Below are positions 2,011-40,512 of a stretch of 41,476 nucleotides of DNA, piece after piece. The stretch lies in the IMG/VR virus record IMGVR_UViG_3300045051_000818, positions 1 to 41,476 of that record; one strand, 5' to 3'. Both the position numbers and the translations under genes were made by a program. The DNA is from a virus. The notes under the pieces were generated by a model. It did no database searches. It had not been told where the DNA came from and saw only the letters and a list, made by a program, of their open reading frames with translations. How positions within the stretch are numbered: position 1 is the first letter of the stretch; every line of letters begins with the position of its first letter.

Positions 2011-2016
2011 AAAAAA

Positions 2017-3086
<1,070 letters not shown>

Positions 3087-3090
<4 letters not shown>

Positions 3091-3377: not shown

Positions 3378-3391
3378 ATATCACCTCCATT

Positions 3392-3550
3392 TTAATCCTC
3401 AACCTTCACTATATCCTTAATTACCCCCGATTTTCCATTACACTTACTGCACTTACAACCCCTTCCTCTTGCATTGTCACACTCAACCCACACTTCTTTC
3501 CGGCAGGTAAAACAAAATATTTTAATCCTGTATTTACCTATGCTTGGGGC
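3392..3550 (-). CDS. Possible zinc-finger mini-protein lacking a standard start
   Basis: The frame is open for 52 codons and has CFTC, then ECDN, then GCKCSKC, a clear cysteine-rich zinc-binding pattern. A stop codon lies immediately upstream at 3551-3553 and there is no ATG, GTG or TTG before the first cysteines, so translation would need ATA or ATT, or a frameshift from upstream. It lies between the 52-residue zinc protein and the strong ribosome binding site at 3377. The frame could also be the tail of a decayed gene. Confidence 0.4.
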   Translation of the reverse strand, partial: APSIGKYRIKIFCFTCRKEVWVECDNARGRGCKCSKCNGKSGVIKDIVKVED

Positions 3551-22265: not shown

Positions 22266-22982
22266 TTATAGTTTCGATAAATATGGAAGTATACAATTTT
22301 TCTGATATTCTCTTAGTTTTTCCTGGTATGGTCCATTAAAAGGGAGATTTTCTTCCCACATAGGCATACGTCCATGTTCAAGACTATATGATTTATTTGT
22401 TTGATCTAGTTTAAAATTCCATCCACCTTGGAGTTTAAGACGATCTAGTACATCAAGACCACAAAGAGAGGAATATTTATCAAGTTCCTCATCAAATCCA
22501 CCAACAGAGTATATTGCTTCTTTTGGTATTGCACAAAAATTCCACTCTATTTCATTGTGGTTACACTCATTCAATCCCGTTCCTTTCTCTCTAGGGTCTT
22601 TCCAACTAATAACAGTAAATGTTTCATCTGTATATTTATTACCCACACCAGATATTATCGACTTCTCGTCGGCTTGATAGTTAATCCAAAACTTTTCAAG
22701 AGCATCAGGATCAAATGAGGTATGGTCTTGAATAGAAACTATTAGTTCACCTTTTGCGTGTCTAATCATTTTATTGTACGACTTATACACACTCCAATAA
22801 TCTCCTTCATTTTTGGGTGGATCAGTAAGAAGTTGGTCTATTTCAAAACCTTTAATTTTAATATGTGAGGGAGCTGAAACTATCCACTCCCAATTTTTAA
22901 ATGTTTGACGATTAAGTGCTTTCTCAACTAGCCTCAGTCCTTCGGGACGAATAGTAGGAGTTATTACGGAAATGGTCGCCAT
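22266..22982 (-). CDS. GT2-type glycosyltransferase (238 aa)
   Basis: A GT-A fold glycosyltransferase: ISVITPTIRPEG at the N-terminus, IQDHTSFDPDALEKFW in place of the usual DxD, and a W-rich acceptor half (WNFCAIPKEAIYSVGGFDEE). The DxD motif is altered to QDHTSF, so the metal site is unusual. It has no membrane segment and should be soluble. It starts inside the end of the neighbouring GT2 gene (22964-23704) and the two are probably co-translated. Confidence 0.7.
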   Translation of the reverse strand: MATISVITPTIRPEGLRLVEKALNRQTFKNWEWIVSAPSHIKIKGFEIDQLLTDPPKNEGDYWSVYKSYNKMIRHAKGELIVSIQDHTSFDPDALEKFWINYQADEKSIISGVGNKYTDETFTVISWKDPREKGTGLNECNHNEIEWNFCAIPKEAIYSVGGFDEELDKYSSLCGLDVLDRLKLQGGWNFKLDQTNKSYSLEHGRMPMWEENLPFNGPYQEKLREYQKNCILPYLSKL

Positions 22983-23704
22983 GGAATCACCACCTGTTCG
23001 GGAAACTCTTTGGCAAATAACACGTCAGGATATTCACCATGTTTTTGTTTGAAGTATTCACGATTTTTAATATCTCTCTCACTTCTGTTTTTTCCATCAT
23101 CCATTGATCTATATGTAAGTGAATCGGCATGTTGATAAACAGCTTTATTAGTATATGCTTGTTCCCATCCCTTAGAACGCATTCGGTGGTGGTGAGAGTA
23201 ATCGTCATATCCACCAGCACCATATGCCTCATCATAGCCCTGGAAGGCCTCACGACGCACTACAAAGAAGCTGGAGCTACACCACCTCTCTTTGCCACCA
23301 ATCCATGTGTCTTTGCCTTGTTCCATCGGTTCATCATAACCGATCATCTTGTAGTGAAGAGTACCTACTTTAGGATCTTTGAAGACCTCTTCTGCTATTT
23401 CCATCCAATTTGAACTAACACGAATATCATTATTGGAAAGTGCCACAAATTCGCCATGAGATAATTTCATTCCCTGATTAACAGCTCCAGGATAACCTAC
23501 ATTTTCTTTATTTCTAATATAAATATCAGCATTAGGTCTAACGACCCCTGCTCCATATGGTGATCCGTTATCGACAATTACAAATTCAAATTCACCGTTT
23601 GTTTTCTTTAATGATTCAACTGCACGCATTGAATAGTTAGCCAAATCTGGTGTTATATCGTATGTAAGCATTACTACACTAAATGAAGTATTGTTTTGTG
23701 TCAT
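22964..23704 (-). CDS. GT2 glycosyltransferase, rhamnosyltransferase-like (246 aa)
   Basis: SVVMLTYDITPDLANYSMRA at the start, FEFVIVDNGSP, IYIRNKENVGYPGAVNQG and ALSNNDIRVS are the classic donor-binding blocks of GT2 enzymes (DNGS and NND in place of DDGS and DxD). GGYDDYSHHHRMRSKGW follows, as in rhamnosyl- or galactofuranosyltransferases. It is soluble. It overlaps the 23701-24516 gene by 4 bases. Donor sugar is not identified. Confidence 0.75.
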   Translation of the reverse strand: MTQNNTSFSVVMLTYDITPDLANYSMRAVESLKKTNGEFEFVIVDNGSPYGAGVVRPNADIYIRNKENVGYPGAVNQGMKLSHGEFVALSNNDIRVSSNWMEIAEEVFKDPKVGTLHYKMIGYDEPMEQGKDTWIGGKERWCSSSFFVVRREAFQGYDEAYGAGGYDDYSHHHRMRSKGWEQAYTNKAVYQHADSLTYRSMDDGKNRSERDIKNREYFKQKHGEYPDVLFAKEFPEQVVIPWRPFP

Positions 23705-24516
23705 ATAAGCGCCTCCATGACAACATTAGCATATTTTTGTGCTGAATAATTTTTTAGTATAAATTCTCGGGGGCCAAGTCCTGACTCTTTCAATTCTTCC
23801 AAATAAGAACACGCCTTTATGTTTTCTGGATTAACCGTTGGAACAATGTCATTACTCATAGCTTCAAGAACTGTTCGCTCACTTCCATGAATGGCAGGTA
23901 TAGTAACTCGCTTGGATTTTCTGTAATAATTCCTTATTTTTATAGCAGGAAAATATCCAACTTCTACTTTTACTCCCTTGTCTATACATTCCTGATATTC
24001 TGTTTTTCCATCTGGTTGGATAGTCCCAACACACAACAACTTATCTCCCAAGTAAGCGATTTTTGACTGTCTCTTCCAGGGACTAAAAGTAGCTGGGTAA
24101 AAATATTCAATTGTTTTGTTTATTGGTTTGATGGGAGGACTAAAAAACTCTTGGTCGGTGGCGAATGCTTTTACCCCTTTGGCACCAAGGTTACGAACTT
24201 CTTGTAATACAGGCGTGCTTTCACAAAATACTGCATCAAAAGCTAGTAAATTCCCCTGATTATGGGGATTTGTAGTTAAAAACAAACCCTTTTTGGCACT
24301 ATAATCTGGCAAGTGCTTAATAAATTCACACGAATCATCACTCCAAAGTAATATTATGTCAAAATTGTCTTCTGGACTGGGAACCTCTTTATCAAAGAAC
24401 CACTGTACATGATGATTTTGGCTAATAAATTCCATCGCAGCTCTTAGTCCATCACGCCAATTAGGCATAACTTCCGATGCTTGTTCCCAAAACCACACAA
24501 ACGCAATCTTTTTCAT
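23701..24516 (-). CDS. GT-B glycosyltransferase, GT4-like (271 aa)
   Basis: Starts at ATG 24516 (KKIAFVWFWEQAS). The C-terminal half contains VEVGYFPAIKIRNYYRKSKR and IPAIHGSERTVLEAMSND, which match the GT4-type donor site (E-x7-E-like GSERTVLEAMS). The N-terminal half is a Rossmann-like acceptor domain with weaker similarity. It is shorter than a usual GT4 protein. Soluble and operon-borne. Confidence 0.65.
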   Translation of the reverse strand: MKKIAFVWFWEQASEVMPNWRDGLRAAMEFISQNHHVQWFFDKEVPSPEDNFDIILLWSDDSCEFIKHLPDYSAKKGLFLTTNPHNQGNLLAFDAVFCESTPVLQEVRNLGAKGVKAFATDQEFFSPPIKPINKTIEYFYPATFSPWKRQSKIAYLGDKLLCVGTIQPDGKTEYQECIDKGVKVEVGYFPAIKIRNYYRKSKRVTIPAIHGSERTVLEAMSNDIVPTVNPENIKACSYLEELKESGLGPREFILKNYSAQKYANVVMEALI

Positions 24517-25142
24517 GGTGTATACTCCCACCAACTAGACTCCCAATTAGTATCCTGACTTGCACAGTAGAGCATTTTTAATGGTAAAGTCCCGTTTTTA
24601 TGTCTTCTAACTATCTCGTTTGTTTCGTCAAATACTCCATCTTTTTTTAAATTAAACCCATCTATTAGGGGTATGTCGTGAATTTGCACTATTGCTCCAG
24701 GAATACATTTCTTAAGAAGAGTATCAAATAACCACTCGGTTGTTGGCCCATCGTGTGAGTTATCTACAAACAAGTATTCTATATTGTCTGGGATATCTTT
24801 TGCTTTAAGAATATCTCCTCCTAGAATAACAGCCTTATCTTTCAATAACCTTTTTAAATTGCTTTGTGCAACCTCTCTTAATCCATCATCTTTCTCGTAA
24901 CTTTTGAAATTATATTTTCCACCATTCTTTTCTAAAGCTTGTACAATATCGTAGGTACACCTTCCGGTGCGTGATCCGAATTCTACTATTACCTTGGGTT
25001 TGAGTTCACGTACGACAGAGTAATTAACAGCAGCACTATAATCATCATATTGAGATTCCCACATGGCTGCTATCTCTAATCCATCAGTCGCCTGTATTTC
25101 ATCTTTGTATTTTTCAAACAATTCTTTAGGATTTATTTTCAT
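24513..25142 (-). CDS. Class I SAM-dependent methyltransferase (209 aa)
   Basis: Starts at ATG 25142. VIVEFGSRTGRCTYDIVQAL is the SAM-binding motif I (E/DxGxxxG form), and LFVDNSHDGPTTEWLFDTLL then IVQIHDIPLIDGF are motifs of the Methyltransf_24 group. It acts on a small sugar or acyl substrate, or on a lipid-linked sugar; the substrate is unknown. It overlaps neighbours by 4 bases on each side. Confidence 0.7.
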   Translation of the reverse strand: MKINPKELFEKYKDEIQATDGLEIAAMWESQYDDYSAAVNYSVVRELKPKVIVEFGSRTGRCTYDIVQALEKNGGKYNFKSYEKDDGLREVAQSNLKRLLKDKAVILGGDILKAKDIPDNIEYLFVDNSHDGPTTEWLFDTLLKKCIPGAIVQIHDIPLIDGFNLKKDGVFDETNEIVRRHKNGTLPLKMLYCASQDTNWESSWWEYTP

Positions 25143-25492
25143 GGGAATGGAACAATACACTTGCCTTTATATCCGTTTTCTTTTAGTTTTTCCATTATTG
25201 GTTTTGCAAAATTCCAAGCTAATATCAATACATAATCAGGTTTATTTTTATATAACTCTTCAGATGAGACTATCGGGATGTGATTCCCGGGCATATATCT
25301 ACCAATTTTCAGAGGTGAATCATCAACAACAAAATCGATTACACTAGCTCCTATTCCAAAATAGTGAAGAAAAGTTGTAGCTTTTGCCGGAGCTCCATAT
25401 GCAGCAATCGTCTTACCTTCTCTTTTGATTTTACACAAGGTAGATATTAGTTTACTTTTATTTAAAAAGATTTTATTTTGAAAGTTTTGCAT
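25139..25492 (-). CDS. C-methyltransferase C-terminal domain, separate ORF (117 aa)
   Basis: This matches the C-terminal domain of sugar C-methyltransferases (NovU/TylCIII type): GKTIAAYGAPAKATTFLHYF, VVDDSPLKIGRYMPG, HIPIVS and PDYVLILAWNFAKPIM. The usual order is zinc-binding domain, SAM domain, then this domain in one protein. Here it starts at an ATG 20 bases before the stop of the SAM-domain gene, in the +1 frame. Part of the usual linker seems missing. It could be an independent subunit or the product of an indel. Confidence 0.65.
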   Translation of the reverse strand: MQNFQNKIFLNKSKLISTLCKIKREGKTIAAYGAPAKATTFLHYFGIGASVIDFVVDDSPLKIGRYMPGNHIPIVSSEELYKNKPDYVLILAWNFAKPIMEKLKENGYKGKCIVPFP

Positions 25493-26237
25493 ATACTCTT
25501 AATGAACCACCATGAACAGGTGTTCTTTCAACTTTGTCCACCAACATATTATGTAAATTAAAGAATGTTGTTAAAGATTTCTCATTCCAATAGTTTAAAT
25601 GTTCGTGATAAATCAAATCAAAAGAACCTTTCCGAAGCATAATATCAAGATCAGGTACCTCTACAACAAATCCTCCTTTGGAATTAAGCATTATTTTAAC
25701 TCCACTTATTACTTCTTCTAGATCATCTATGTGTGCAAACACATTCGTTGCAGTAATTAAATCTGCCTGTCCATACTCCTTCACGATTAAATTAGATATT
25801 CTTGTGTCAAAAAACTCTGGTATCGTAGGTATCCCCTCTTCTGTTGCTTTCTTTGCTATTTCAACAGCCGGATCAACCCCTAATACCCGTATTCCACGGT
25901 CTTTAAAAGGTTTAAGAAGTATTCCATCATTACTTCCTATGTCAATTATAAAGTTAGGATTAACTGTGTTTGCAAAATTAATAAAATGATCACGGAATAC
26001 CTTGGAAGTAGAAGACACATATAGGTAATTTTCAAACATTACTCTAGGATCAATAACGTGAGATAGTTGCAGATTTCCACATCCCACACACTTATTAACA
26101 ATAAGTGGATAGAATGTTTTAGGATTATTTAACTCTTCTTTTGTTAAGTAAGAATTAGCAAGTGGAGTCATCCCAAAATCCCATAATTTTTCTAATTTAT
26201 CTCCTAAACAAACTCTACAGGTGTTTCTTGGTTTCAT
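25473..26237 (-). CDS. Sugar C-methyltransferase N-terminal and SAM domains (254 aa)
   Basis: The N-terminus is a zinc-binding Methyltransf_13-like domain: CRVC (8-11), then PLANSYLTKEEL, NKCVGCGNLQLSHVIDP. The SAM domain has FIIDIGSNDGILLKPF and GVDPAVEIAKKA, then TATNVFAHIDDLEEVI and GGFVVEVPDL. In full-length enzymes a C-terminal domain follows; here it is on a separate overlapping ORF in the +1 frame (25139-25492). It likely methylates a keto-sugar nucleotide. Confidence 0.75.
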   Translation of the reverse strand: MKPRNTCRVCLGDKLEKLWDFGMTPLANSYLTKEELNNPKTFYPLIVNKCVGCGNLQLSHVIDPRVMFENYLYVSSTSKVFRDHFINFANTVNPNFIIDIGSNDGILLKPFKDRGIRVLGVDPAVEIAKKATEEGIPTIPEFFDTRISNLIVKEYGQADLITATNVFAHIDDLEEVISGVKIMLNSKGGFVVEVPDLDIMLRKGSFDLIYHEHLNYWNEKSLTTFFNLHNMLVDKVERTPVHGGSLRVYAKLSK

Positions 26238-27175
26238 ATATTATTCATTACGTAGTCAGCCATTACTTCACATGTCTTTGTTTTAACCCAATCGTTCGCT
26301 CCCTTTGATATTTTATTATACGTTCCGTTCCCTTCTATTCTTTCTATTTTGTCCATTAACATCTTTGGATCATCCCAGAGGATGCAGTTTTCCATATCAA
26401 CTAACCCGAGAGGATGAGTTTCTTTTGGTTTGTCGTACCACGTTTTACCATCCCATTTCCAACCCTTTGTATATATACAAGGTACACACCAATTAGCTGC
26501 ATACTCCATAAACCTGGGAGTATCCCAACCACTCTTTTTCATTCCAAGTCCATATTTGGAAGCTGCCAAATCTGCATAATATTCTTCTTCTTTTATGAAT
26601 CTTTCTTTACTGCACTGTTCTTTAATCTGAGGAATCGTATATGCTTCATCTACTTGACAATATCTAGCAAACGTCTTAGTTTTTATTGGTTTCTCTGTCA
26701 ATATTTTTTCCTCCGGAATGGAAAGTCCAATTATCTTAATACCATTATATTTGAAAGGGTTCTCTCTTTTAAAATAAGTTCCCCAATGAAGTGCATCATA
26801 TACAGTTGGTTTGCCATCATCCGTGCCATCAAGAAATACCAATTTTTTCCCAGCAATCTTACAATTCTCAAAGAGAAGAAAAACAGTCCAATGTGAAAAT
26901 GGCTCTTGTTGCCTATATATGTCAGAGAAAACAATTACATCAAATTCGTTATTATCAACTCTTTCTTGCATATTTTCTCGATCTATTAAGATGTTGGGCA
27001 ATAGTCCCCACAAGGTAAACCCACCACCATAATCAACAATATTTTTTCCCCCTTCATACATCGATTCTTTCTTGGGAAAATCAATAACATCCGATCCATA
27101 CTTCATACGAAGACCATATAAAATACCATCAGATAAATAGTCCTCCATGTCTGTAGTTATATAAAGTATTTTCAT
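26234..27175 (-). CDS. Probable GT-B glycosyltransferase, CgeB-like (313 aa)
   Basis: Start ATG 27175 (KILYITTDMEDYLSDG). The protein has a first Rossmann-like half with FDVIVFSDIYRQQ, a middle KTKTFARYCQVDEAY, and a C-terminal part with KYGLGMKKSGWDTPRFMEYAA, which fits the CgeB/GT-B donor domain where a glutamate binds the nucleotide sugar. A Trp/Lys-rich loop is unusual. The gene overlaps neighbours on both sides by 4 bases. Donor unknown. Confidence 0.55.
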   Translation of the reverse strand: MKILYITTDMEDYLSDGILYGLRMKYGSDVIDFPKKESMYEGGKNIVDYGGGFTLWGLLPNILIDRENMQERVDNNEFDVIVFSDIYRQQEPFSHWTVFLLFENCKIAGKKLVFLDGTDDGKPTVYDALHWGTYFKRENPFKYNGIKIIGLSIPEEKILTEKPIKTKTFARYCQVDEAYTIPQIKEQCSKERFIKEEEYYADLAASKYGLGMKKSGWDTPRFMEYAANWCVPCIYTKGWKWDGKTWYDKPKETHPLGLVDMENCILWDDPKMLMDKIERIEGNGTYNKISKGANDWVKTKTCEVMADYVMNNI

Positions 27176-28152
27176 TTCTTCCAATTAGCTGGCATTTTGT
27201 CACTTGGAATTTCAATATCTGTATAAATAAGTTCCTGTGGACCAATACTTTTTGCATATTCCCAAGTCCTTTTTAATCCCTCTTCTAAAGTAACCGTTGT
27301 CTTGTATTCCAGTAGTTTCTTTGCTTTGCTGTGATTTTCAAGAGAAATTTTCACCTCTTGAGGACGATCTGGTAAATGGAGTGGGGGTAATTTACCTCCT
27401 GTAACCTTTTGCAGTGCGTCAGAAAGCTCTGTAAGCGAGTAAGACTCGTCTGCTCCTATATTAAATATTTCATTGGCTACAAACAAACATTTATATAATC
27501 CATCAACTAAATCGTCAATGTAGGTGTAGGCTCTCTTTTGACCTCCAGATCCATAGATTACATATTGTTTATTTTTCATTAAAGCGTTCATCCAAAGTGC
27601 TATCACATTTCTATAGGGAGTAATGAATGATTGTTTTGGTCCATATACATTATGGGGGCGTGTGATTACGTACTGAAAGTCATGAACATTTGAAAGTATT
27701 TGAAGTGTCTTTTCCATAGAATATTTAGCAAGAGCGTAAATGTCTTCTGGATGTAGTTCGTCTTCTTCGGAAAAAGGAGATTTTATATTTCCATACGCTG
27801 CAATAGAACTTGTCACAATAATTTTTTTCATTCCACAAGCAAGACCGGCAACCAAAGTATTAAGAAATGTATTATAGTTATTAGTAAATATCTCTATCGG
27901 ATTAAACTGTGCTTTTGATTCGGCAGCATGCGAAGCCAGGTGGTATATGATTTCTGGTTTTATCTCGGCTAATGCTTTATTCGTAAAGTCTTTGTCTCTT
28001 AGATCACCAATAGAGTAAATACATTTATCGTTTCTATTGTTTAGTCCCTCAGATAAATCGTCAATGCCATATACTTCATGACCCTCCTTGATAAGTTTAT
28101 CTACTAAATGACTTCCTATAAATCCGCAGGCGCCAGTGATTAAAATTTTCAT
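27172..28152 (-). CDS. NAD-dependent sugar epimerase/dehydratase (326 aa)
   Basis: A short-chain extended-type enzyme: GACGFIGSH (7-15) binds NAD, YGIDDLS follows the second strand, VTSSIAAYG supplies the catalytic serine, and YALAKYSMEK the Tyr-x3-Lys pair. RPHNVYGPKQ and YTYIDDLVDGLYKCL are typical of UDP-glucose 4-epimerase and related GDP/dTDP-sugar enzymes. Length fits the family. It should supply an epimerised or reduced sugar nucleotide for the neighbouring transferases. Exact substrate is not fixed by sequence. Confidence 0.85.
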   Translation of the reverse strand: MKILITGACGFIGSHLVDKLIKEGHEVYGIDDLSEGLNNRNDKCIYSIGDLRDKDFTNKALAEIKPEIIYHLASHAAESKAQFNPIEIFTNNYNTFLNTLVAGLACGMKKIIVTSSIAAYGNIKSPFSEEDELHPEDIYALAKYSMEKTLQILSNVHDFQYVITRPHNVYGPKQSFITPYRNVIALWMNALMKNKQYVIYGSGGQKRAYTYIDDLVDGLYKCLFVANEIFNIGADESYSLTELSDALQKVTGGKLPPLHLPDRPQEVKISLENHSKAKKLLEYKTTVTLEEGLKRTWEYAKSIGPQELIYTDIEIPSDKMPANWKK

Positions 28153-28808
28153 ACAATGAAATGGCCGAATCCAGTATGATGATTAGGATTAGTTGTCTCG
28201 CACTTATCATACGGGAGTGCTCGCCAAATATCCCAAAGACCATCCATACGAATATCATCAAGAACTACAACTGTACCTTTCTTGAAGAAGGGAGTGTATA
28301 AATCTAATTCCTTTTGTAAATGCTCTTTTGTATGAAGTGCATCTATAAACCAGATATCGGTCTTACTAAGATCAGGTCCTAATTCCATATCAAACGTGCC
28401 ATCAAACTTGGATCCAGACCAGTTTTTTCTCCACAAGTCAGGATCTGTGTCATCTCCCAAAACTTTTTCCACTTGTGGATAATCTCTATTCATCCACTTC
28501 CAAGCAATTGACTTATCTATATCTACTGAATAAAGCTTTGATTCTTTTGGTAGTTGGGATGCCATCATGATGGTGGAGATACCAGCAGCGGCCCCCAACT
28601 CCACTACTTGTTTAGGTTTGAGTACCCTCATTAGGCAAGCAAGCCACTGATAATATCTATTTGCATTTGGACCACGGTCATATATCTCATCCAGTTGACC
28701 GGACGCAATCAAAGAAAGTTGATTACCCAATTCTCCAATATCAAATATTTTAATATACTCACAAACTTTGGTATCAAGCTCGTTGGCGGTTAATGAATTT
28801 TTTTTCAT
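28149..28808 (-). CDS. Class I SAM methyltransferase (219 aa)
   Basis: The chosen ATG 28808 follows GAAGGGG at normal spacing. VVELGAAAGISTIMMASQLP is motif I, SVDIDKSIAWKWM motif II, GDDTDPDLW and DIWFIDALHTKEHLQKELD then VVVLDDIRMDG follow, as in sugar O-methyltransferases or Methyltransf_24 proteins. It overlaps the zinc mini-protein upstream and the epimerase downstream. Confidence 0.75.
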   Translation of the reverse strand: MKKNSLTANELDTKVCEYIKIFDIGELGNQLSLIASGQLDEIYDRGPNANRYYQWLACLMRVLKPKQVVELGAAAGISTIMMASQLPKESKLYSVDIDKSIAWKWMNRDYPQVEKVLGDDTDPDLWRKNWSGSKFDGTFDMELGPDLSKTDIWFIDALHTKEHLQKELDLYTPFFKKGTVVVLDDIRMDGLWDIWRALPYDKCETTNPNHHTGFGHFIV

Positions 28809-28947
28809 AATTGGCATCCCCTTCACACTTAGAAGAACAGTAGACAGTTGGTAAGTCTCCCCTCTTGTTTTTTGCAAATACTTTCATGGGTTTGCCACAA
28901 TATGAACAATATGCTTCAAACATCCCGTCTCTTATTACATTTGTCAT
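28774..28947 (-). CDS. Zinc-ribbon mini-protein in the glycan operon (57 aa)
   Basis: ATG 28947 overlaps the stop of the upstream GT/methyltransferase gene (ATGA). The product contains YCSYCGKPMKV and VYCSSKCEGD, a compact Cys4 zinc ribbon, with polar flanks. Its presence inside a sugar operon is odd; it may be a small accessory factor. It overlaps the next gene's start by about 35 bases in another frame. Confidence 0.55.
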   Translation of the reverse strand: MTNVIRDGMFEAYCSYCGKPMKVFAKNKRGDLPTVYCSSKCEGDANYEKKFINRQRA

Positions 28948-30266
28948 TTGTTTTTTACCTCCACTAACATACAATGTTCTTGATCTATGACGAATTGGAT
29001 TATTTCATAATCTACAAGTAAACTTTTTAACTCTTCCTCAGAATATAATCTTAAATGACCGCTGGGAAGAGAATCATCCCAATGCTTATGATTAGGCTCA
29101 TTTTTGTGTAGTTCAATTCCTAAGTGATCAGTGCGAGGAGTAGATAAATATAAACTCCCGCCATCGGCTACAAGACTCATGCAGTGGTCAATTCCCTTTT
29201 TTGGATCTGGTAGGTGTTCCAATACTTCCATAAGTACCACGGCATTATATTTGCCGGTTTGGTCAAACAGATCACCACAAATAAACTTGGCATTCAAATT
29301 AAGATCTTGTGCTCTACTGTTGGCTAAATCTACTGAAGGCTTATATAGATTAACTCCTATTGATTCAATTCCATTCTTTGCAGCGGTTAGACAAAGAACA
29401 CCGTCAGCACAACCAAGGTCAATCATAGTTTTAACACTTTTATTTTTAATAGATTTAAAGAACCAATCCCATCGTGGATAAATGTTTTCAGCTTGAGTCA
29501 TGTACTTTTCATCAATAGGGGTTTCTGGTAAATGTTCTGAATAGAACTTTTTATATTCCTCTGGTTCAAATGCATGACGGACTTTTGCATATACTTTTTC
29601 TTTCAATGGTGAATCTGTGTCTTTCACCAAATCCCATGCTTTCATTGGTTGGTTGTCGTCCATCAGTATGTCTATCTGTTTTTCAAGTGAAGGAGCTGAT
29701 TTAAATTCTTTGTCCCAATCACTTGCTACCTTACCCCAAGGAAATGTTTTACGTGCCCAGTCAATCATTTCCTGTCTTTGCTCTTCCGTTGGTGGATTTT
29801 TTAAAGTCTCTATTAGTTGTTTTGTGTATTCTTCTTTTACTTCAGGTTCATATATATCTCCTTCGACTTTAACGCCGTACTGTACTGTTTCTTTAAGTGC
29901 TGCCCAGTTAGTTACAACAGGCCATGCTCCGTATGCCTGGCTTCTCATGCCGGTTATACAACTGATCTCTCCGAAGTGGCATGGATACGCCCAGATACCT
30001 GCTTTCTCAAACTCTTTAATACAGGCTTCATGGCTAATACGTCCTAGCTCTGTAATACCAGGTTGAGTCATTAATCTTTGCATCTTTTCTTTCCAAGACA
30101 TCGATGCAGGATTTCCACTAAGCATTTTGTCAAAGAGATTCCACCCATAAAATATAACTAACTTAGCGTCTGGGACTTCTTTAATTACATCAGGCCATAT
30201 CTCCAATAGATGCTGGAGACCTCTATCGTAGCTAGAACCGTAAACTATTTGTTTTGTATTTCTCAT
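28944..30266 (-). CDS. GT4 C-terminal half fused to SAM methyltransferase (440 aa)
   Basis: The first 200 residues are the donor-binding half of a GT4 enzyme (VYGSSYDRGLQHLLEIWPDV, KLVIFYGWNLFDKML, TELGRISHEACIKEFEKAGI, PCHFGEISCIT). Only the C-terminal GT-B domain is here; the N-terminal half ends the upstream gene. The second half (about 230-440) is a class I methyltransferase with MIDLGCADGVLCLTAAKNG, ICGDLFDQTGKYNAVVLMEV and EHLPDP. The start overlaps the upstream stop by ATGA. The two ORFs thus look like one multi-domain polypeptide that has been split. Confidence 0.7.
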   Translation of the reverse strand: MRNTKQIVYGSSYDRGLQHLLEIWPDVIKEVPDAKLVIFYGWNLFDKMLSGNPASMSWKEKMQRLMTQPGITELGRISHEACIKEFEKAGIWAYPCHFGEISCITGMRSQAYGAWPVVTNWAALKETVQYGVKVEGDIYEPEVKEEYTKQLIETLKNPPTEEQRQEMIDWARKTFPWGKVASDWDKEFKSAPSLEKQIDILMDDNQPMKAWDLVKDTDSPLKEKVYAKVRHAFEPEEYKKFYSEHLPETPIDEKYMTQAENIYPRWDWFFKSIKNKSVKTMIDLGCADGVLCLTAAKNGIESIGVNLYKPSVDLANSRAQDLNLNAKFICGDLFDQTGKYNAVVLMEVLEHLPDPKKGIDHCMSLVADGGSLYLSTPRTDHLGIELHKNEPNHKHWDDSLPSGHLRLYSEEELKSLLVDYEIIQFVIDQEHCMLVEVKNK

Positions 30267-32011
30267 ATATTTAAACCATTACTACTTATCATCACTTTGT
30301 CATCAGGTACATTTGGTATTCCACTTCTGTGATACTTACTTAGTACAAATACTTTATCTATTTTTGCTAACCTCTCAGGAGTAAATTCAAGTTGATTCAA
30401 AAGATCATGGCACCAAAGATAACTCTTCTTTGATTTTATTGGTAAATCAAACATTCCAATTTGCCTCCAACTGATAATGATATTAAAGTTATCATTCCAG
30501 TTAATTTTGTAGTGAGGAATCCAGTTGACACCATCGTAAACTCCCTCGTCTTCCTGTGGATCACCAAACACTGTTACTTCCCAACCTAACTTTGCTAATT
30601 CTTTTGAAAGATAGATAACAGCTTCTTCACTTCCTCCAATTCCTTTTGCAATATTCTTTGGACTCCACTTTTCAAATCCTGGACCACAATAAATAACAAC
30701 TGATTTATTGCCCCAAGTGGTGGGTTTAATAAACTCATTTTTAAGATTAATTAATGTTGGTTCCCATTCAATCTCTTTCGGAATTGCGTTTATAATTGAT
30801 TGAAGTTTATCTATTTGTCCGGTGTTTTTAAGATGATATGCAAGTTTAATTATCCAGTGAGCCATATTGTTTCTATGTTTGACATCCATAACTCCCTCTA
30901 GCCTTTCCTTATTTATCTCGTTGGGCAGAAGTTCAAGAAGACCAATGGCTACTTTTTCGGCTTCGTCTAATTTTCCAGTATTTAAATATATATGGAAAAG
31001 AGCTTCTAATATCATTGATTTATAGTCGCGTGGTTGGGTAACAAGCGTCGTCTTCGGTATCTCCATGTTTCGGGCAATATCTATATAATGCATGGCGTTT
31101 TCCCACTGCTTTTCCATGACATACGTCAAAGCTTGTTGAACATAAATCGATATCCACCTGGGCCATTCGTGCTCTGCCTCAAGGAGTGCGTAATGAGCTT
31201 TTTTCATTTCCCCTTTGTCGCGGTGGATCATCGCCAAATATTCCCAAGCTTGGGAGCGTTCCTCTGGCCAACCAGACTTCCTAATATAGTCTTTAATGAG
31301 TTCGGCCGTAATTGAATCTAGACCTGGTCCCACTGAATCGTAGCAAAGCAAGGGATCTCGTGTATCAAAATAGGCTTTGGCCAAGTAATAAATAGGTCTA
31401 GGATCTGAGGAATCTTTAATGATTGCGTTTTCTAAGATCTCCACATTTCTATCTAATGAAGCTAACCTGTCTGCGCCTGTTGCCAAGTGCACTACATAGA
31501 AACTATCTACATCGGTTTTGCCACTTGGGACTTGTTCTATGAGTGTCTCATGAATTGGGGCAATCCACTTATACGTCCCATCATTTTTAATGAGACGCTC
31601 GCGTAAATGTTCAATTAAAATTTGTTTAATACGTCCCCTTTCGTCTTGCTCAACTGAATAGAGGTAACGTGCATAAATGGCTTTAATGTTTTTCTCATCG
31701 GCCATCTGGGCTGCAACTTTTAAGTTTTCCCCACCAACTAGGACATCGTCGGTATCCAACCAGAAAATCCAGTCATATTCTCTGGGGACTTTTGAAAAAC
31801 AGTAGTTACGGGCTTCAGAGAAATCTTTTGTCCAGGCAAACCAACTCCATTGAGCAGAGTATTTCTTACATAGTTTTTTAATTTTTACCTGTGGTTTTTT
31901 TGTGCCAGTAATAAAAACATTATCTACAAATGGAGCAACTGACTTAAGGCAACGGTCTAACTGTTTTACTTCTGTGTCATCTTTGACAATTAAAGCTGCT
32001 GCTATTTTCAT
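30263..32011 (-). CDS. GT2 + TPR + GT4 N-terminal half glycosyltransferase (582 aa)
   Basis: Start ATG 32011 (KIAAALIVKDDTEVKQLDRC). Domain order: GT2 with WIFWLDTDDVLVG near 90-100 and PIHETLIEQ; helical TPR-like repeats at about 195-410 (PIYYLAKAYFDTRD, AWEYLAMIHRDKGEM, ALTYVMEKQWENAMHYI); then the N-terminal half of a GT4 domain (VVIYCGPGFEKWSPKNIAKG, GGSEEAVIYLSKELAKLGWE). It ends SSNGLNI where a GT4 donor half should follow; that half begins the next ORF. It is the first gene after the L2 promoter/terminator module. It may build a multi-sugar chain. Confidence 0.75.
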   Translation of the reverse strand: MKIAAALIVKDDTEVKQLDRCLKSVAPFVDNVFITGTKKPQVKIKKLCKKYSAQWSWFAWTKDFSEARNYCFSKVPREYDWIFWLDTDDVLVGGENLKVAAQMADEKNIKAIYARYLYSVEQDERGRIKQILIEHLRERLIKNDGTYKWIAPIHETLIEQVPSGKTDVDSFYVVHLATGADRLASLDRNVEILENAIIKDSSDPRPIYYLAKAYFDTRDPLLCYDSVGPGLDSITAELIKDYIRKSGWPEERSQAWEYLAMIHRDKGEMKKAHYALLEAEHEWPRWISIYVQQALTYVMEKQWENAMHYIDIARNMEIPKTTLVTQPRDYKSMILEALFHIYLNTGKLDEAEKVAIGLLELLPNEINKERLEGVMDVKHRNNMAHWIIKLAYHLKNTGQIDKLQSIINAIPKEIEWEPTLINLKNEFIKPTTWGNKSVVIYCGPGFEKWSPKNIAKGIGGSEEAVIYLSKELAKLGWEVTVFGDPQEDEGVYDGVNWIPHYKINWNDNFNIIISWRQIGMFDLPIKSKKSYLWCHDLLNQLEFTPERLAKIDKVFVLSKYHRSGIPNVPDDKVMISSNGLNI

Positions 32012-32023
32012 TTTCAGTCCAAT

Positions 32024-32055
32024 AAAAAAGACGAGGCCCAATTAAGTTCCTCGTC
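32024..32055 (-). terminator. Attenuator-like terminator before the glycan block
   Basis: Minus strand: GACGAGG (32049-32055), a 12-base loop, CCTCGTC (32030-32036) and a T6 tract (32024-32029). The start codon of the GT gene is 13 bases downstream, and the promoter is upstream, so termination here would control the whole sugar block. Confidence 0.75.
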
Positions 32056-33002: not shown

Positions 33003-34608
33003 TTACCCGTTAACGTTATATCCGCTCCTATTTACAGAAGACCTTTCTGCAAGGTATTCGAGAGTAAATTCTCCAACGATTTGACCGTTCTCACGATCAC
33101 CATCTTTGGAAAGCATTTCTCTGAATGGTTTACGTAGGTAAGCCACCCTAAAGAGATCCTCTTTAAGACCTAAGAATCTTGGTCCTGGCGTTGCTGCTGC
33201 GGATGGAACATATCTGGATTGCATTATACGTGCAACTCCAGCAGAGGTTTCATAAATAGCAACTGGCTGGGTAAGTTTCTTGTCAGATTGATCAACATAT
33301 TTAGTAGCGCCCGCAGTAAATCCATCGATTTTTCTCTTGAGTCCAAAAGGAACAAGAACTAAGTCGAATGAATTGTCTGTACCACCCTGGTTCCATGAAT
33401 CCTGATGCATATCTTGGAATTCGGTTTCAGATAGTGATGTACCAGAATTGCGTGCAGTATAAAGCGTCGTGATGACATTAATAAGTCCTGCCATTCCGCG
33501 CGCAGTACCTGATGCTCCTGATGCCACCCCATTAGTAGAACCGTTTATAAGATTGTATTCCTGATTCATTTTCCAGATTCTCAAGGCCTTAGCTGCCTGG
33601 TAGTCCATGGGGTCTTGTCCATTTGCTGGATTAACCGACCTTTCTGTACCAGACACTCTAAAGGTTTGTGTCAATATCGCTGTGATATTGGTTCTTCTTT
33701 GAGGAACTGTAAGGGCTGCATAAGTTGCTTGTGCACCTTCTGCCGCATTTGTTACTGAGGTTGGAGGAGTAATGTACTCTTCTGACCATTGATGTAACGT
33801 ATTGCTAGCAGTTGATGTTTTAAGCATAGTAGCAATTGGCGTATCATCGGGAGTAATATCTCCGACGATATCCAATAAATCTTCACGCCTATCAACAGCG
33901 TCATCTTTATTGTTGCTCGCCTTATGGCGGGAGTAGTCATTTCTGCTACTCTCTTAATATTCCTATTAAGAACAGACTATAGCTTCATCCCAGTGGGAGC
34001 TTGTCGCTTAGTCGTTACACCTCTTGTCTTGGTTTTAAACCGAATGGATGAGTCGAGAAATAATTTAATATTTCATTTGCTCTAGCTTTTTTATAACCTA
34101 CTAAATAAGGTTCTATTAAAGGCAAGAACTGTTCTATGTCATTACGTCGTCTTATTGTTATTTCGTAACAAGGCTTCGTAAATTTATAAGATCCTTCTCT
34201 TTGTTTTTTGCTGGAACTTTTAAGTCGATATTTAACCGTGTATCCTAGTATTTCCCAAATCCGCTTTACTTCATTTATTATTGATAAATCTGTATTAACA
34301 ATAACTACTCCGTAAAAAGGTGAAGGTCTACAAGGCAAACCGCTTTTTAAAGGTTTCTTTCTTTTACTAAAGTAAAAAGCCAGAGAACCTTCTCCTTCGA
34401 CTATTCCTGCTATCCATCCGATGTTAAAGTGCGAAACAAGTTGGCTCGGGGTTGGCCTTTTCATGTTTTGATTGTAACATATGTTGGTTACGTTCTCAAC
34501 AAGCAATTGGCTATTCACCGAATTCAGACAAGTGTTTTCTCACAAAGATTGCTCTTTGCGTACACCTAAGCATGTAGTATTCCTACCCACGCTCAATGTA
34601 ACTAACAT
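33003..34608 (-). CDS. Major capsid protein, interrupted by a group I intron
   Basis: HK97-fold-type capsid protein in two exons: exon 1 34568-34608 and exon 2 33003-33915 (317 aa joined). Exon 1 starts at ATG 34608 after AGAAAGGAG; exon 2 supplies NNKDDAVDRREDLLDIVGDI. The core includes TPDDTPIATMLK, QTFRVSGTERSVN, a middle with NLINGSTNG and VAYLRKPFREML near the C-terminus. The DRREDLLDxI..I.P.DTP start and the size are typical of phage capsids. The splice joins codon TT|C in frame. A start at TTG 33875 would remove the DRREDLL segment. Confidence 0.75.
33916..34567 (-). other. Group I intron in the capsid gene
   Basis: Minus-strand folding: P1 exon TGCTT (34568-34572) with GAGCA (34550-34554), ending in the U-G splice pair. 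P3 CTTGTC (34527-34532) pairs with GACAAG (34000-34005). P4 ATTCGG (34518-34523) pairs with CCGAG (34445-34449). P7 ACGACTA (34009-34015) pairs with TAGTCTG. P8 is TCCC/GGGA. P9 is a perfect 8-bp hairpin with a GGAA loop (33952-33971), followed by two smaller hairpins. The final G is at 33916. The splice sites are predicted, not proven. Confidence 0.85.
34015..34464 (-). CDS. LAGLIDADG homing endonuclease in the intron (149 aa)
   Basis: Single-motif LAGLIDADG enzyme: HFNIGWIAGIVEGEGSL carries the G-E-G acidic site (E for D). FYGVVIVNTDLSIINEVKRI, YEITIRRRNDIEQFLPLIEP and YKKARANEI follow, as in family members of about 150 residues that act as dimers. Start ATG 34464; the ORF covers P4 on its 5' side and its stop is in P7. 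It should cut intron-less capsid alleles at the intron's insertion site. Confidence 0.85.
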   Translation of the reverse strand: MKRPTPSQLVSHFNIGWIAGIVEGEGSLAFYFSKRKKPLKSGLPCRPSPFYGVVIVNTDLSIINEVKRIWEILGYTVKYRLKSSSKKQREGSYKFTKPCYEITIRRRNDIEQFLPLIEPYLVGYKKARANEILNYFSTHPFGLKPRQEV

Positions 34609-34643
34609 TGTTTGTAATTCTCCTTTCTAAGATCAAGGATCTA

Positions 34644-35441
34644 TTACCTCCGGCCAGCCAATCGTTGGGCAATCGCGTCAATGGCTTCTTCTCCTCCTCG
34701 TCTTGTTTTAAGGCTTAATGCCTCTTGTTCTTCAGCAGAACGTGCCTGACGAGATGGTGCTGATGTTGTACCACTCACGGCTAATGATGCCTGTTCTTTC
34801 GGACTAAGCTCGGTCAATGCCTGTTCAGCTCCCTGCTGGGCGGCTTTATCAAGAGCTTTATTCACTCTTTTTGCAACTTGCCCGGCTAGGCTTTCAACTG
34901 TGACATTAGTATTCCCATTTAACTTTTCAAAAAGGTAGCGCGCTGCTACTTCTTTTTCCAGTTCTTTGTCACTAAAGACATCTGGGTACTTAGATCTAGC
35001 TTGATATTCATCAAGTTGATCCTTAACTGTTTGGGCTGATTGGGCTGCGGCTACCGCTTGCACATTTGCAGTTTGTGCGGCGTTATACGCGTTCCAATTG
35101 ACCTCACCTGTATTGGGATCTGCAAATTGATTAATATCAACTTGTTTCACCCCAGGCTGCGTCGGTGCCCTGAACGAATCGAAGGCGGATTCATTCCTAA
35201 TCCTTCCATCCTGTTCAGACTTCAGTCTGTCCAGCTCTTCCTTAAGCTGTTTATTTTCCAATCTCTGTTGTTGAAACGCCCTCCGCGCTTCACTTTCTTC
35301 GTTTGGTAAATCAGGCTCAACTATTGGTTGCTCCTTTATTGTCGTTTCTACCTGGGTCTCAGGTACTTTACCCTGTGGCGAGCTGGGTTGGGTAGTTGTC
35401 TCTACCGCGCTTTTTGCAGCCACGTTTTTGGTTTCATCCAT
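34644..35441 (-). CDS. Scaffold protein (265 aa)
   Basis: Starts at ATG 35441 (DETKNVAAKSAVE) after GGGGGTGATAAAT, the strong ribosome site. An acidic, low-complexity N-terminus (QPIVEPDLPNEESEARRAFQ) is followed by a coiled coil (QQQRLENKQLKEELDRLKSEQ is over-long to print in full) and a helical C-terminus with Arg at the end (AIAQRLAGRR). This composition and position directly before the capsid gene are typical of a scaffold. No protease domain is seen. Confidence 0.7.
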   Translation of the reverse strand: MDETKNVAAKSAVETTTQPSSPQGKVPETQVETTIKEQPIVEPDLPNEESEARRAFQQQRLENKQLKEELDRLKSEQDGRIRNESAFDSFRAPTQPGVKQVDINQFADPNTGEVNWNAYNAAQTANVQAVAAAQSAQTVKDQLDEYQARSKYPDVFSDKELEKEVAARYLFEKLNGNTNVTVESLAGQVAKRVNKALDKAAQQGAEQALTELSPKEQASLAVSGTTSAPSRQARSAEEQEALSLKTRRGGEEAIDAIAQRLAGRR

Positions 35442-35467
35442 ATTTATCACCCCCTTTATGCAACTTG

Positions 35468-35499
35468 GGTTACGTAAGTGACACGTCAAATTTACAAGT
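35468..35499 (-). promoter_or_regulatory. Leader motif (ACGT-loop-ACGTAAC) before the scaffold gene
   Basis: Minus strand reads ACTTGTAAATTTGACGTG then TCACTTACGTAACCC. It resembles the portal leader (TTGTAAATTCGTACACG... then GCGTAAC) and the 15.0-kb leader (ACGT...ACGTAAC), but lacks a terminator. Confidence 0.45.
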
Positions 35500-36531: not shown

Positions 36532-36846
36532 TTAACTCACCCCCTCCCGCAATTTATCTATCATTTGTCCTTTTTCTTTTTTACTTAACATTTCAGCCTG
36601 TTCAATATTCGTGTTTACGTAATCAATAATTTGTTGAGCACAACTTGCAAAAGCCCATGCTGTTTTATTTGCATACGCATATTCCTCGTCGTTTTTAAAC
36701 GATCTGGGATCAACCCATGAATTGTGTATTTTGTCCTCCAACCATTTGCATAGGAGCTGCCATCCCTCCTGGGACGACATTTCCTTGAGACGGAACCCCT
36801 GCTGTTGCAGCTGGAGCTCCTCGGTTGAGAGCTTGATTTTGGACAT
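36532..36846 (-). CDS. Small protein overlapping the portal 3' end (104 aa)
   Basis: The frame from ATG 36846 overlaps the portal's last 137 bases in another frame. A later ATG at 36780 (MSSQEGWQLLCKWLEDK) is the more credible start, because similar small phage proteins begin close to the GW.LL..WLE motif, and it leaves an 83-residue helical protein ending KKEKGQMIDKLREGVS. Probably a head-assembly helper; the role is not proved. Confidence 0.5.
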   Translation of the reverse strand: MSKIKLSTEELQLQQQGFRLKEMSSQEGWQLLCKWLEDKIHNSWVDPRSFKNDEEYAYANKTAWAFASCAQQIIDYVNTNIEQAEMLSKKEKGQMIDKLREGVS

Positions 36847-38749
36847 CTTGTATTTGTCCTGGCATCATTCCAGGAACTTGCGGTTGTTGGGGAATATCCT
36901 CGAAATACTGCTCGGCATCTTTAATTACGTTGGTGGATTCAAACATCTTAATTAAGAGATCTGATATCTTTGGTTTCTTGCCTTCCATTTGAAGTTCTTG
37001 TAATACAACAGGGTTAGTTAGTACGCCAAGTATTGCTGTTAACTTTTGTTCTACAGATTGACTGCTTGGTGCTTGCATACTCTCTACATCTGGAATGTAG
37101 TCATATTCACCACTCAGATCTCCTTGCTCCACATAAAGGTTTCCACCTTGTCCTGTTTCGTCTGGAGCAAATTTAGGAACCACTCCATTTGATGTTTTAA
37201 CTCCAAATCTCGGTCCTGGCGTAATTGTATTGGGATCAAGTGTCCCCATGGCCACGGCTTGTGTGTCTTCATGGGTAGGCCTAATATCCGATAATCCTTG
37301 ACGATTAAAATACTCGGCTGCGTCTTTGCCTACAATCCTAATAACTTTTACCTTGCCTGCGTTTCCAGCAAACAAAAATTGTTTATTCATAGACAGTGAA
37401 AACATGACATCACGCTTTAAAGCTTCTGATAAAAATATCAAATTCATGTTGTCACGTACGTTACGAGTGAAACTGGTGTCTCTAACCTCAGTTGCCGTTT
37501 TGTCTTGCTGCAAAGGATCAATGTTGCTAATGCCCTGAGAAGCTTCGCCTAATGCGTTTAGAGTAGAGCTTTTCATAATTGTGTAAACTGACTGGAAGTT
37601 AGAGGTAATTGAGGAATCTCCCTTATATGCTATAACATCCGCTCCAGGATTATTCATGAGCCACTTGGCCTCTGGAATCATTTCAAGCGTATGCATGCGT
37701 ACATTAATTGGATTAACCATGATAGGAGGCTTAGTGAGGGTAGCCACTGTATCTGAGTATGCAGACAAGTGAGCATTTACTCCCTTAATTTGAGAAACAG
37801 CGGGTTCCAGTTCCGGAATACCGTAGATATCATCTGGAAGAGCATAGTACTTTAAATGAATGACAGGAATTTGTTGATGATTGTATGGGTTTGGTATATC
37901 TCTAACCACTACTCCATAGCGTGGGGCGAATGTTATCCATCTGTTTGGGCGATACTCAGTAATAAGTTCCACCACCTTATACACTTGGTCTTGGCCTAAT
38001 GTGTCAGTTAATCCTTTAATTTGTTTGTTTTTACTCACATAATTACTTTCTCTTCTGTCTGAAGATTTGGATTGGTTATCCTCTTGAATGGCGCTGCGCA
38101 AAATATCCAAGTTTTTATATATGGGCTTGGTGCGAGCAGTATCATTTACACTAGTGAGCTCACTGAGTGTGTTATATTCCCTATACTGAAACCATTTATT
38201 GATATAAGGATATGAGGGATTAACAAGTACGTCTCTCGGATTACATACAATAAAATCTGGGCAATCGTAGAAAACTTTTCTTTTTTTGCCACTCGGATCT
38301 ATTCTTGTTTCATATCTCCACTTTTTAATGGCAAAGCCAGAGCCATATTTACGCGCGTTTTGAGAAAGCATGTGCCAGCGTTCAATTGCCGATGGCCCAA
38401 TTTTAGATAACTCATCTCTTTGGTATCTAATTATTTCATTATTAATCTCAGCTCCCAATGCATCAGAGTCCTCGCGGGGGGCAAGTCTTCCTGTTAACTT
38501 CCCACCCATGAGTCTTGCGTCTTTTTCAATTATCGTGCTGAATGGGGTAGCATCAAAGAGTACTGATCTATATGGCCAAGTAGCTGGGTCAATATAACTA
38601 GCAAACAACTTGTCCATATCATCAAAACCGTTTTTACGTCTGATTCTTTGATCCAAATCAAGCTTAGACATAATGTAGTGGTTGTTAACCTCACTGAAGA
38701 GTTTTTGTTCTTCCTCTGATCCACGGGCTTGTACTTGAATTTTTGCCAT
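36710..38749 (-). CDS. Portal protein (679 aa)
   Basis: A large podovirus-type portal: a helical N-terminal half (MSKLDLDQRIRRKNGFDDMD), WHMLSQNARKYGSGFAIKKW, a stem region with HLKYYALPDDIYGIPELEPA, then GEASQGISNIDPLQQDKTAT. The C-terminus is a low-complexity Gln/Pro/Met/Gly barrel tail (QQPQVPGMMPGQ). It lies between the terminase genes and the scaffold, as expected. It forms the dodecameric ring through which DNA enters and leaves the head. Confidence 0.8.
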   Translation of the reverse strand: MAKIQVQARGSEEEQKLFSEVNNHYIMSKLDLDQRIRRKNGFDDMDKLFASYIDPATWPYRSVLFDATPFSTIIEKDARLMGGKLTGRLAPREDSDALGAEINNEIIRYQRDELSKIGPSAIERWHMLSQNARKYGSGFAIKKWRYETRIDPSGKKRKVFYDCPDFIVCNPRDVLVNPSYPYINKWFQYREYNTLSELTSVNDTARTKPIYKNLDILRSAIQEDNQSKSSDRRESNYVSKNKQIKGLTDTLGQDQVYKVVELITEYRPNRWITFAPRYGVVVRDIPNPYNHQQIPVIHLKYYALPDDIYGIPELEPAVSQIKGVNAHLSAYSDTVATLTKPPIMVNPINVRMHTLEMIPEAKWLMNNPGADVIAYKGDSSITSNFQSVYTIMKSSTLNALGEASQGISNIDPLQQDKTATEVRDTSFTRNVRDNMNLIFLSEALKRDVMFSLSMNKQFLFAGNAGKVKVIRIVGKDAAEYFNRQGLSDIRPTHEDTQAVAMGTLDPNTITPGPRFGVKTSNGVVPKFAPDETGQGGNLYVEQGDLSGEYDYIPDVESMQAPSSQSVEQKLTAILGVLTNPVVLQELQMEGKKPKISDLLIKMFESTNVIKDAEQYFEDIPQQPQVPGMMPGQIQDVQNQALNRGAPAATAGVPSQGNVVPGGMAAPMQMVGGQNTQFMG

Positions 38750-38853: not shown

Positions 38854-39169
38854 TATGTTTAGTGCTAATTTTGACGTCCCTCTCACGCGCCTCCACCATC
38901 ATTGTGTTTTTTCTAACGTGGATGAGAACTTCTCCTTGCCCGCTCCCCAATATTATATTTTGCACGCTACGAATGACACGGGGCAATATCTCAGGGTTAA
39001 CTGATGTTTGATCTAGGTACTGAAGAATTTTATACACATTGTCGTGTGGAATAGTGAGATTAGGAAATAGTGAATCTAAAACAAGTGTTAAATTACGATT
39101 GTTACTCTCCAGTTGTTGATCATACTGAGTAGGATCAAATATGGTGGGAAGGGACTTTATATTCTCCAT
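38837..39169 (-). CDS. Hypothetical protein (110 aa)
   Basis: ATG 39169 overlaps the terminase end by 13 bases. The protein is helical (NIKSLPTIFDPTQYDQQLES, LVLDSLFPNLTIPHDNVYKI), then beta-rich at the C-terminus (GEVLIHVRKNTMMVEARER). It may be a packaging accessory factor. Its stop overlaps the portal promoter. No family recognised. Confidence 0.5.
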   Translation of the reverse strand: MENIKSLPTIFDPTQYDQQLESNNRNLTLVLDSLFPNLTIPHDNVYKILQYLDQTSVNPEILPRVIRSVQNIILGSGQGEVLIHVRKNTMMVEARERDVKISTKHIDTSV

Positions 39170-40512
39170 TTATCTTTCAAATTACTGTTCACATTTTCAT
39201 AGTTTTGGCCAAAAAGAGCAATGTCCTTTAATCTTCCTTCGTTCTTCTGGTAACTAACTGCAAAGTAACTTAAAGCATCCATAGCATGATCATTAGCTTT
39301 CTCTGGTACATCTGGTTCATTCAAGTCTTGTGCCTGTGTGACACTTTTTTCTTTCCACCGATAGGTTTCGAATTCTCGAATAACATTTGTGCAATTGCTA
39401 AAGATGAACAAGCTTGGCATTCCGAGAGTCTGCGACTGCTCTGAAAAGGTAGATGACTGCATGCTCCCCACTGTGTGTCCAGGTATTCTTTTAAGTTTCT
39501 CTGCAACCTTTTCAATTTTAAATCTGACCCATGTGTTAAAGGCTGTACTTGTTTCTTTTGTCGCAGGTGTGATATATATACCTCTGGTAGCAAACTCTGT
39601 AATAAATTGTGCTCCACTAGGGTCTCCAAAAGTTTGGACCACTGACTTGCTGTAAGGACTGGCATTGATTTGACCTGCGTGATAATCGATTGATTGTCCC
39701 GACTCATAATGCTCATTTGCAATGAACCAGTTCTCGTCTCCATCAACCGCAATCCATAAGCAGACTGTTGGGTTTGTGCTACCGAAGTCCATACATCTGT
39801 AGATTGACCAGGATTCGTTAATATCAAACGGTTCGATAACATGGACTTCTCTCTGGAATTCTTTGTAAACCAAGCCCGTATACTTCCTAAAATCTGCCAT
39901 ATACTCTTGTTGGAATGTGTCTTCTGTAAGTTCTTTTTTAGCATTGTCTATTTCTTGGGCTGGGATGTAAGGATTATCATAGGACGTAAATTTCCATGAT
40001 TTATAGTCACTGTCTTTTTGTTGGCCCAAGTTGTAGAGTTCGTAAAAATGATTGTAACCTTTAGGGGTAGATATAAATATCGTAGGGGATTCGTAATCTG
40101 TAAGAGTAGGCCTAAGTACTTCTTGCCAAAGCCAATCCCAGTTTCGTATAGATGCGATCTCATCAATGACAAGTCCCCTGAGCTTAATTCCCCTAAGGGC
40201 ATCTGGATTCTCAGCTCCCTTGAGTTCAATAGTCGACCCATTTTTGAGCGTGAAGGATAATTCTGTTTCATTTGTTTTCAATATCCAATCTCTCGGGATA
40301 ATATTTTTAAGTTCCCGCCAATGAATACTCTTTGCCTGTTTATATGTTGGCGAAACTATGTAATATACTCCAACATTTTTAGTTGCCCACTGTAATGTAA
40401 TAAGTTGTGCAAGTGTGGATTTACCACTTCTTCTTCCAGCACAAATTACTTTGAATCTGTGTGTGTCTTTTGCTACTTCTAATTGCCATGGGCTAAGTTT
40501 GACTCTCAACAT
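39157..40512 (-). CDS. terL: Terminase large subunit (451 aa)
   Basis: The packaging motor. Walker A is AGRRSGKST at 25-33, Walker B GLVIDEIASIR follows at about 113, and TIFISTPKG is the coupling motif. The nuclease domain has MDFGSTNPT (first acidic residue, about 240-250), FGDPSGAQF and NDHAMDALSYF. Length and motif spacing fit terminases of this type. It overlaps the small subunit gene by 20 bases. Confidence 0.95.
   Translation of the reverse strand: MLRVKLSPWQLEVAKDTHRFKVICAGRRSGKSTLAQLITLQWATKNVGVYYIVSPTYKQAKSIHWRELKNIIPRDWILKTNETELSFTLKNGSTIELKGAENPDALRGIKLRGLVIDEIASIRNWDWLWQEVLRPTLTDYESPTIFISTPKGYNHFYELYNLGQQKDSDYKSWKFTSYDNPYIPAQEIDNAKKELTEDTFQQEYMADFRKYTGLVYKEFQREVHVIEPFDINESWSIYRCMDFGSTNPTVCLWIAVDGDENWFIANEHYESGQSIDYHAGQINASPYSKSVVQTFGDPSGAQFITEFATRGIYITPATKETSTAFNTWVRFKIEKVAEKLKRIPGHTVGSMQSSTFSEQSQTLGMPSLFIFSNCTNVIREFETYRWKEKSVTQAQDLNEPDVPEKANDHAMDALSYFAVSYQKNEGRLKDIALFGQNYENVNSNLKDKWRI

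Follow-up and report, generated by a model that had tools for sequence, protein, structure and literature searches.

A predicted group I intron with a LAGLIDADG endonuclease near the start of a phage major capsid gene

Introns in viral capsid genes and the layout of the locus

Phage capsid genes are already known to contain group I introns, and the one predicted here is a further example. In mycobacteriophage LittleE, a group I intron lies in the major capsid gene, and RT-PCR together with N-terminal sequencing demonstrated that it is spliced (PMC3706429). The LittleE intron resembles ours in its location in the major capsid gene, in being accompanied by an endonuclease ORF and by intronless relatives, and in an exon that ends with U and an intron that ends with G; however, its 819-bp insertion encodes an HNH endonuclease on the opposite strand, whereas ours encodes a LAGLIDADG protein, and its splicing was shown on RNA, whereas splicing in our case is predicted from sequence and involves a first exon of 13 nt (PMC3706429). 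The intron in the capsid gene of lactococcal phage Tuc2009, a similar case, is taken here from its citation in the LittleE paper, and cyanophage S-PM2 is known to have introns in psbA (PMC3706429).

More generally, group I introns are numerous in Jug phages, where terL, nrdD, and other genes carry them (PMC12363816), and homing endonuclease genes cluster near essential phage genes (PMC10448857). The capsid genes of mirusviruses are targeted by HNH-bearing spliceosomal introns, and there too HK97-type capsid genes are preferentially invaded by endonuclease-bearing introns; however, these are spliceosomal by their donor and acceptor sites, carry HNH or GIY-YIG endonucleases, and belong to eukaryotic viruses, whereas the present one is a predicted group I ribozyme in a phage (PMC12768974). 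Interference between co-infecting phages has been reported for an intron endonuclease of phage PhiPA3 (PMC11620839). A literature search that fell short of most subscription journals turned up no account of group I introns with LAGLIDADG endonucleases forming a lineage that concentrates on the capsid genes of phages.

The stretch analyzed, hereafter called the window, is an IMG/VR virus record of 41,476 bases from a tailed phage. On its minus strand, the genes are arranged in the order terminase large subunit (39157-40512), portal-like protein (36710-38749), an ORF (34644-35489) in the usual scaffold position just before the major capsid gene, and the major capsid protein itself. When joined at the junction given in a first-pass annotation of the window, the capsid protein matches SU10_MCP over its full length (PF17236, E = 1.1e-62, profile positions 7-284 of 292), and in PHROGs it is assigned to phrog_1328. 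Its relatives in GenBank phages are distant matches only (best 37%), and a comparison with bacterial genome contigs, made as a lead to the host, found no relative. Elsewhere in the window, ORF 2017-3090 encodes a long SAWSARSAG-type repeat, of which the opposite strand and another frame are also open as repeats, and a block of ORFs among the virion genes (22266-32041) contains, as judged by eye, glycosyltransferase-, methyltransferase-, and NAD-dependent epimerase-like sequences.

Exon map of the capsid gene

The capsid frame is open on the minus strand from 33003 back to 33904 and contains no usable start, in agreement with the first-pass annotation, which had seen no proper start near 33875 and had proposed that a group I intron with a LAGLIDADG endonuclease splits the gene. 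Intronless relatives, covariation, and fold matches all argue for that proposal. By scanning IMG/VR with exon 2, we obtained 14 capsid relatives, and 13 of these, near-duplicates among them, have an uninterrupted capsid start, for example MLVTYDDGSRREDLL (L004), MLVTFDDVSRREDLL (L005), and MLMTYDDTSKREDLL (L010). The remaining relative, L009, carries the same intron without the endonuclease ORF, as an insert of about 240 nt between ATGCTAGTTACAT and ACGATGACGCC that matches RF00028 (49.2 bits, E = 3.3e-11). An alignment of L004 and L009 gives the junction directly, as ATGTTAGTTACAT/ACGATGATGGATCACG and ATGCTAGTTACAT/ACGATGACGCCTCACG, and the predicted exon and intron borders in the window follow from applying this junction there.

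Exon 1 (34596-34608, minus strand, as are all the following features) is ATGTTAGTTACAT, 13 nt that encode MLVT and the first base of a Tyr codon; its extent is supported by the intronless relatives, L009, and the P1 pairing. Its ATG at 34608 is preceded by the ribosome-binding site AAAGGAG (34620-34626), which the first-pass annotation had also recognized before exon 1. The predicted intron (33905-34595), supported by an Rfam match, covariation, and a covariance model, is 691 nt long and ends with G at 33905, and exon 2 (33003-33904) is supported by the PF17236 match and by the 304-aa product of joining. The spliced RNA would read GTTACAT/ATGACGCTG across the 34596/33904 junction, and the predicted protein, which begins MLVTYDAVDRREDLL, has the same length as the intronless MLVTYDDGSRREDLL of L004 and aligns without gaps to its close intronless relatives.

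Three further genomes, a 62-kb phage found through its endonuclease (L016) and two distant capsid relatives (L031 and L046), have the capsid gene interrupted at the same Tyr codon and in the same phase as the window and L009. In the window, P1 is the helix between exon UACAU (34596-34600) and the internal guide sequence GUGUA (34561-34565), and a U.G pair stands at the splice site. With the P1 strands chosen by hand from the sequences, the exon/guide pairs are UACAU/GUGUA in the window and L009, AACUU/GAGUU in L016, GACCU/GGGUC in L031, and CACGU/GCGUG in L046; thus, the U.G is kept in all five same-site introns, and every one of the four Watson-Crick pairs occurs at position -5 and likewise at position -2. 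At the 3' end, the window intron has the tail AACAAUAAAG (33905-33914) with its terminal G, and all of the same-site introns end with a tail of the AGYAACA...G type, in the variant form GGTAACA in L016.

These comparisons bear on where the intron is spliced. The first-pass annotation had placed the splice sites at 34568/34567 and 33916/33915, which gives a 652-nt intron after a 41-nt exon 1. In favor of these sites, they leave the reading frame intact, and a pairing of exon UGCUU with GAGCA is available that puts a U.G at the splice site. However, the joined product MLVTLSVGRNTTCFNNKDDAVDRREDLL carries 13 residues that are absent from all the intronless relatives, whereas the product of the corrected junction aligns with the close relatives without gaps; only the revised sites give a correct join in L009; GAGCA would fall in a hairpin region common to the relatives (the loop region of P2, CAAAGAGCAAUCUUUG), and GUGUA is the better supported guide; and the tail AACAAUAAAG is like those at the ends of the other same-site introns. 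Judged by the intronless relatives, L009, and the same-site introns, the earlier 5' site lies 28 nt downstream, and the earlier 3' site 11 nt upstream, of the corrected positions, and the 652-nt loss that had been suggested as an RT-PCR signal is 39 nt off the corrected length. We therefore regard splicing at the earlier sites as very improbable. An interim junction, with exon 1 ending in ...ACATT and the 3' site after GGCGAG, also kept the frame, with four extra residues, and was dropped on the basis of the L009/L004 alignment.

The remaining SU10-type relatives searched gave no strong match to the intron model (L043 matched weakly, at 15.3 bits), and the window intron had no DNA match in GenBank phages. 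L041 has a group I intron with an HNH-like ORF (52.3 bits, locus 2000-3010) at a different site in its related capsid gene, after the RRED codons. In L016, the capsid gene that holds the same-site intron matches group I once more, further in (3170-3546, 32.5 bits).

The ribozyme core and its endonuclease

The helices P3, P4, P7, P8, and GNRA-capped P9, which the first-pass annotation had obtained by folding, are present in the window upstream of the capsid frame, with GGAA as the P9 cap. The guide is followed by the P2 hairpin CGCAAAGAGCAAUCUUUGUG (34541-34560), to which a similar hairpin in the other introns corresponds by eye. The 5' strand of P3, CUUGUCUG (34525-34532), has its partner within GCGACAAG (34000-34007), a strand identified in the pairing analysis of eight introns; four of its seven pairs are changed on both sides. 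P4 is formed by UUCGG (34518-34522) and CCGAG (34445-34449), the pairs of which are invariant, and P7 by GACUA (34009-34013) and UAGUC (33975-33979). The 3' region contains P8 (33988-33998, three of four pairs changed on both sides), P9 (33953-33970, five of seven), P9.1 (33931-33951, five of six), and, from the sequence, the P9.2 hairpin CCGCCAUAAGGCG (33918-33930).

For the pairing analysis, eight introns were aligned after the endonuclease ORFs had been cut out of the three that carry one. P3, P4, P7, P8, P9, and P9.1 comprise 34 pairs, all of which are paired in all eight introns and 18 of which are changed on both sides; P4 and most of P7 are invariant and hence fall outside the covariation test. 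None of 500 shuffles reached the observed values of pairing or covariation. Slid registers scored far below the observed one; this control is biased towards the structure, for which the window sequence served as the template, but the compensatory changes seen in the other introns are independent of that choice.

A covariance search with a group I model had been suggested as a check. A whole-window Rfam scan gave no match at the gathering score, which is 50 for RF00028; with relaxed thresholds, the 3' half of the window intron matches this family at 25.9 bits (E = 2.9e-4), a low score that is explained by the ORF lying between the two core halves. A covariance model built from eight related introns, with the window excluded, gives the 3' half 88.7 bits, with E = 4.5e-22 for 380 kb searched, and the 5' half, searched separately, 16.6 bits. 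No second group I intron was found in the window by Rfam at E <= 0.5. Matches to the P7 pattern in L062, L067, and L071 look like chance, as their flanks have no intron-like features by eye.

Such a core could also belong to a degenerate intron that no longer splices, in which case the capsid protein would be made from TTG 33875, where a long ORF opens, and would lack the DRREDLL stretch. However, all the core pairs are intact in the window, E-D-L of DRREDLL is invariant among the relatives and R-R nearly so, and a ribosome site and start are found at exon 1, whereas no Shine-Dalgarno-like sequence precedes 33875. Moreover, a phage that had lost its normal capsid start would probably not persist. 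We consider a non-splicing intron highly unlikely.

The P6 loop, which consists of only a few bases in L009, holds in the window a 149-aa ORF (34015-34464) assigned to the LAGLIDADG homing endonucleases by profile and fold matches. Its ATG at 34464 lies in P5; from there it runs through the 3' strand of P4 and the 5' strand of P6 and ends shortly before P7. The acidic catalytic position is kept in its motif, IAGIVEGEG, and the motif is retained across 25 relatives. Alone, the protein matches Pfam LAGLIDADG_3 just under the cut-off (E = 0.001, 19.7 bits against 22.5), and a four-member profile matches I-MsoI (E = 2.2e-8). An AlphaFold2 model built from 25 sequences (pLDDT 87.4) matches I-CvuI, I-CreI, and I-MsoI over about 130 residues, with Foldseek E-values of about 1e-6.

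These three enzymes come from algal organelle introns. The modeled protein is like them in size, in its single motif, and in fold, although sequence identity is about 15-20%; on these grounds we assign it to the LAGLIDADG family and fold of the I-CreI/I-CvuI/I-MsoI type, and by analogy it should act as a homodimer. The label HNH, which PHROGs gives to the closest endonuclease family, is contradicted by the motif and the fold. Matches of the endonuclease in GenBank phages are at most 30%.

Since LAGLIDADG domains are also carried by inteins, the insert might in principle be translated with the capsid protein and removed by protein splicing. The frame from ATG 34608, however, hits a stop after 22 codons, which refutes this explanation; in addition, domain searches with the capsid and endonuclease queries reported no intein domain, and a covarying ribozyme core is present. 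An intein is thus the least probable of the explanations considered.

The whole is very probably explained by a mobile group I intron that lies 13 nt into the major capsid gene, is spliced at 34596/33904, and homes by means of its endonuclease. In the folded transcript, exon UACAU would pair with guide GUGUA as P1, and a guanosine held in P7 would cut after the splice-site U. The freed exon would then attack behind the last base of the intron, G at 33905, so that 34596 is ligated to 33904 and the 304-aa protein beginning MLVTYDAVDRREDLL is restored. The endonuclease, probably as a homodimer, would cut an intronless capsid allele at the insertion site in co-infecting phages, and repair of the cut allele would copy the intron in. 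Note that the borders, the core, and the family and fold of the endonuclease come from comparison, and that we infer splicing activity and homing. With a first exon of only 13 nt, a ribosome that initiates on it is expected to cover part of P1, and the transcript would need to be spliced before it is translated; as the capsid protein is needed in hundreds of copies, an intron in its gene implies efficient splicing.

Related introns in other phages

A search of viral contigs in which the endonuclease alignment was the sole query yielded 56 loci, in about 35 of which intron model R1 matches closely downstream of the endonuclease. The exon-2 proteins are major head proteins in 19 of 20 tested (PHROGs: phrog_1357, 1328, 10/617, 752, and 9953). 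By PHROGs and tblastn, the major capsid gene is interrupted or directly abutted in 34 of the 56 loci, a tally that includes some near-duplicates and covers several unrelated capsid families. The remaining loci include psbA (L112 and L131), DNA polymerase (L126), terminase (L111), tail (L106), and unassigned genes. In L112 and L131, the related LAGLIDADG ORFs (endonuclease near 3001) lie beside genes for psbA, the photosystem II D1 protein.

Sampling by the RNA core pattern found SU10 capsid genes (L009, L016, and L046) and other capsid genes (L077, L066, and L078), together with a tape measure gene (L073) and unassigned genes (L063/L064/L069 and L074/L076). As a separate observation, 5-6 group I matches occur within about 3 kb in L094 (2218-5150; also L093 and L095), with LAGLIDADG-like ORFs and one GIY-YIG-like ORF between short coding pieces, and one phage gene may be split there by serial introns.

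That related introns recur in the major capsid genes of phages with no other relationship is a hint of a family that targets capsid genes. Because the endonuclease query came from capsid introns, the counts suggest a capsid preference as a lead and not as an established enrichment. We consider it possible, though slightly short of an even chance, that the window intron is part of a widespread LAGLIDADG group I lineage that specializes in major capsid genes and has repeatedly invaded unrelated families, frequently close to the start codon; these families include the SU10-type, HK97 Phage_capsid, and phrog_1357 proteins.

For annotation, gene callers would start the capsid gene at TTG 33875 and lose its conserved start, which the corrected exon map restores, and the TCTGAATTCGGYGAA core together with the AGYAACA...G tail provides a signature for finding more such introns. 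The most interesting aspect of the window intron is the family to which it belongs. If one endonuclease lineage does target capsid genes across unrelated phages, this would bear on how introns choose their targets and on interference between co-infecting phages.
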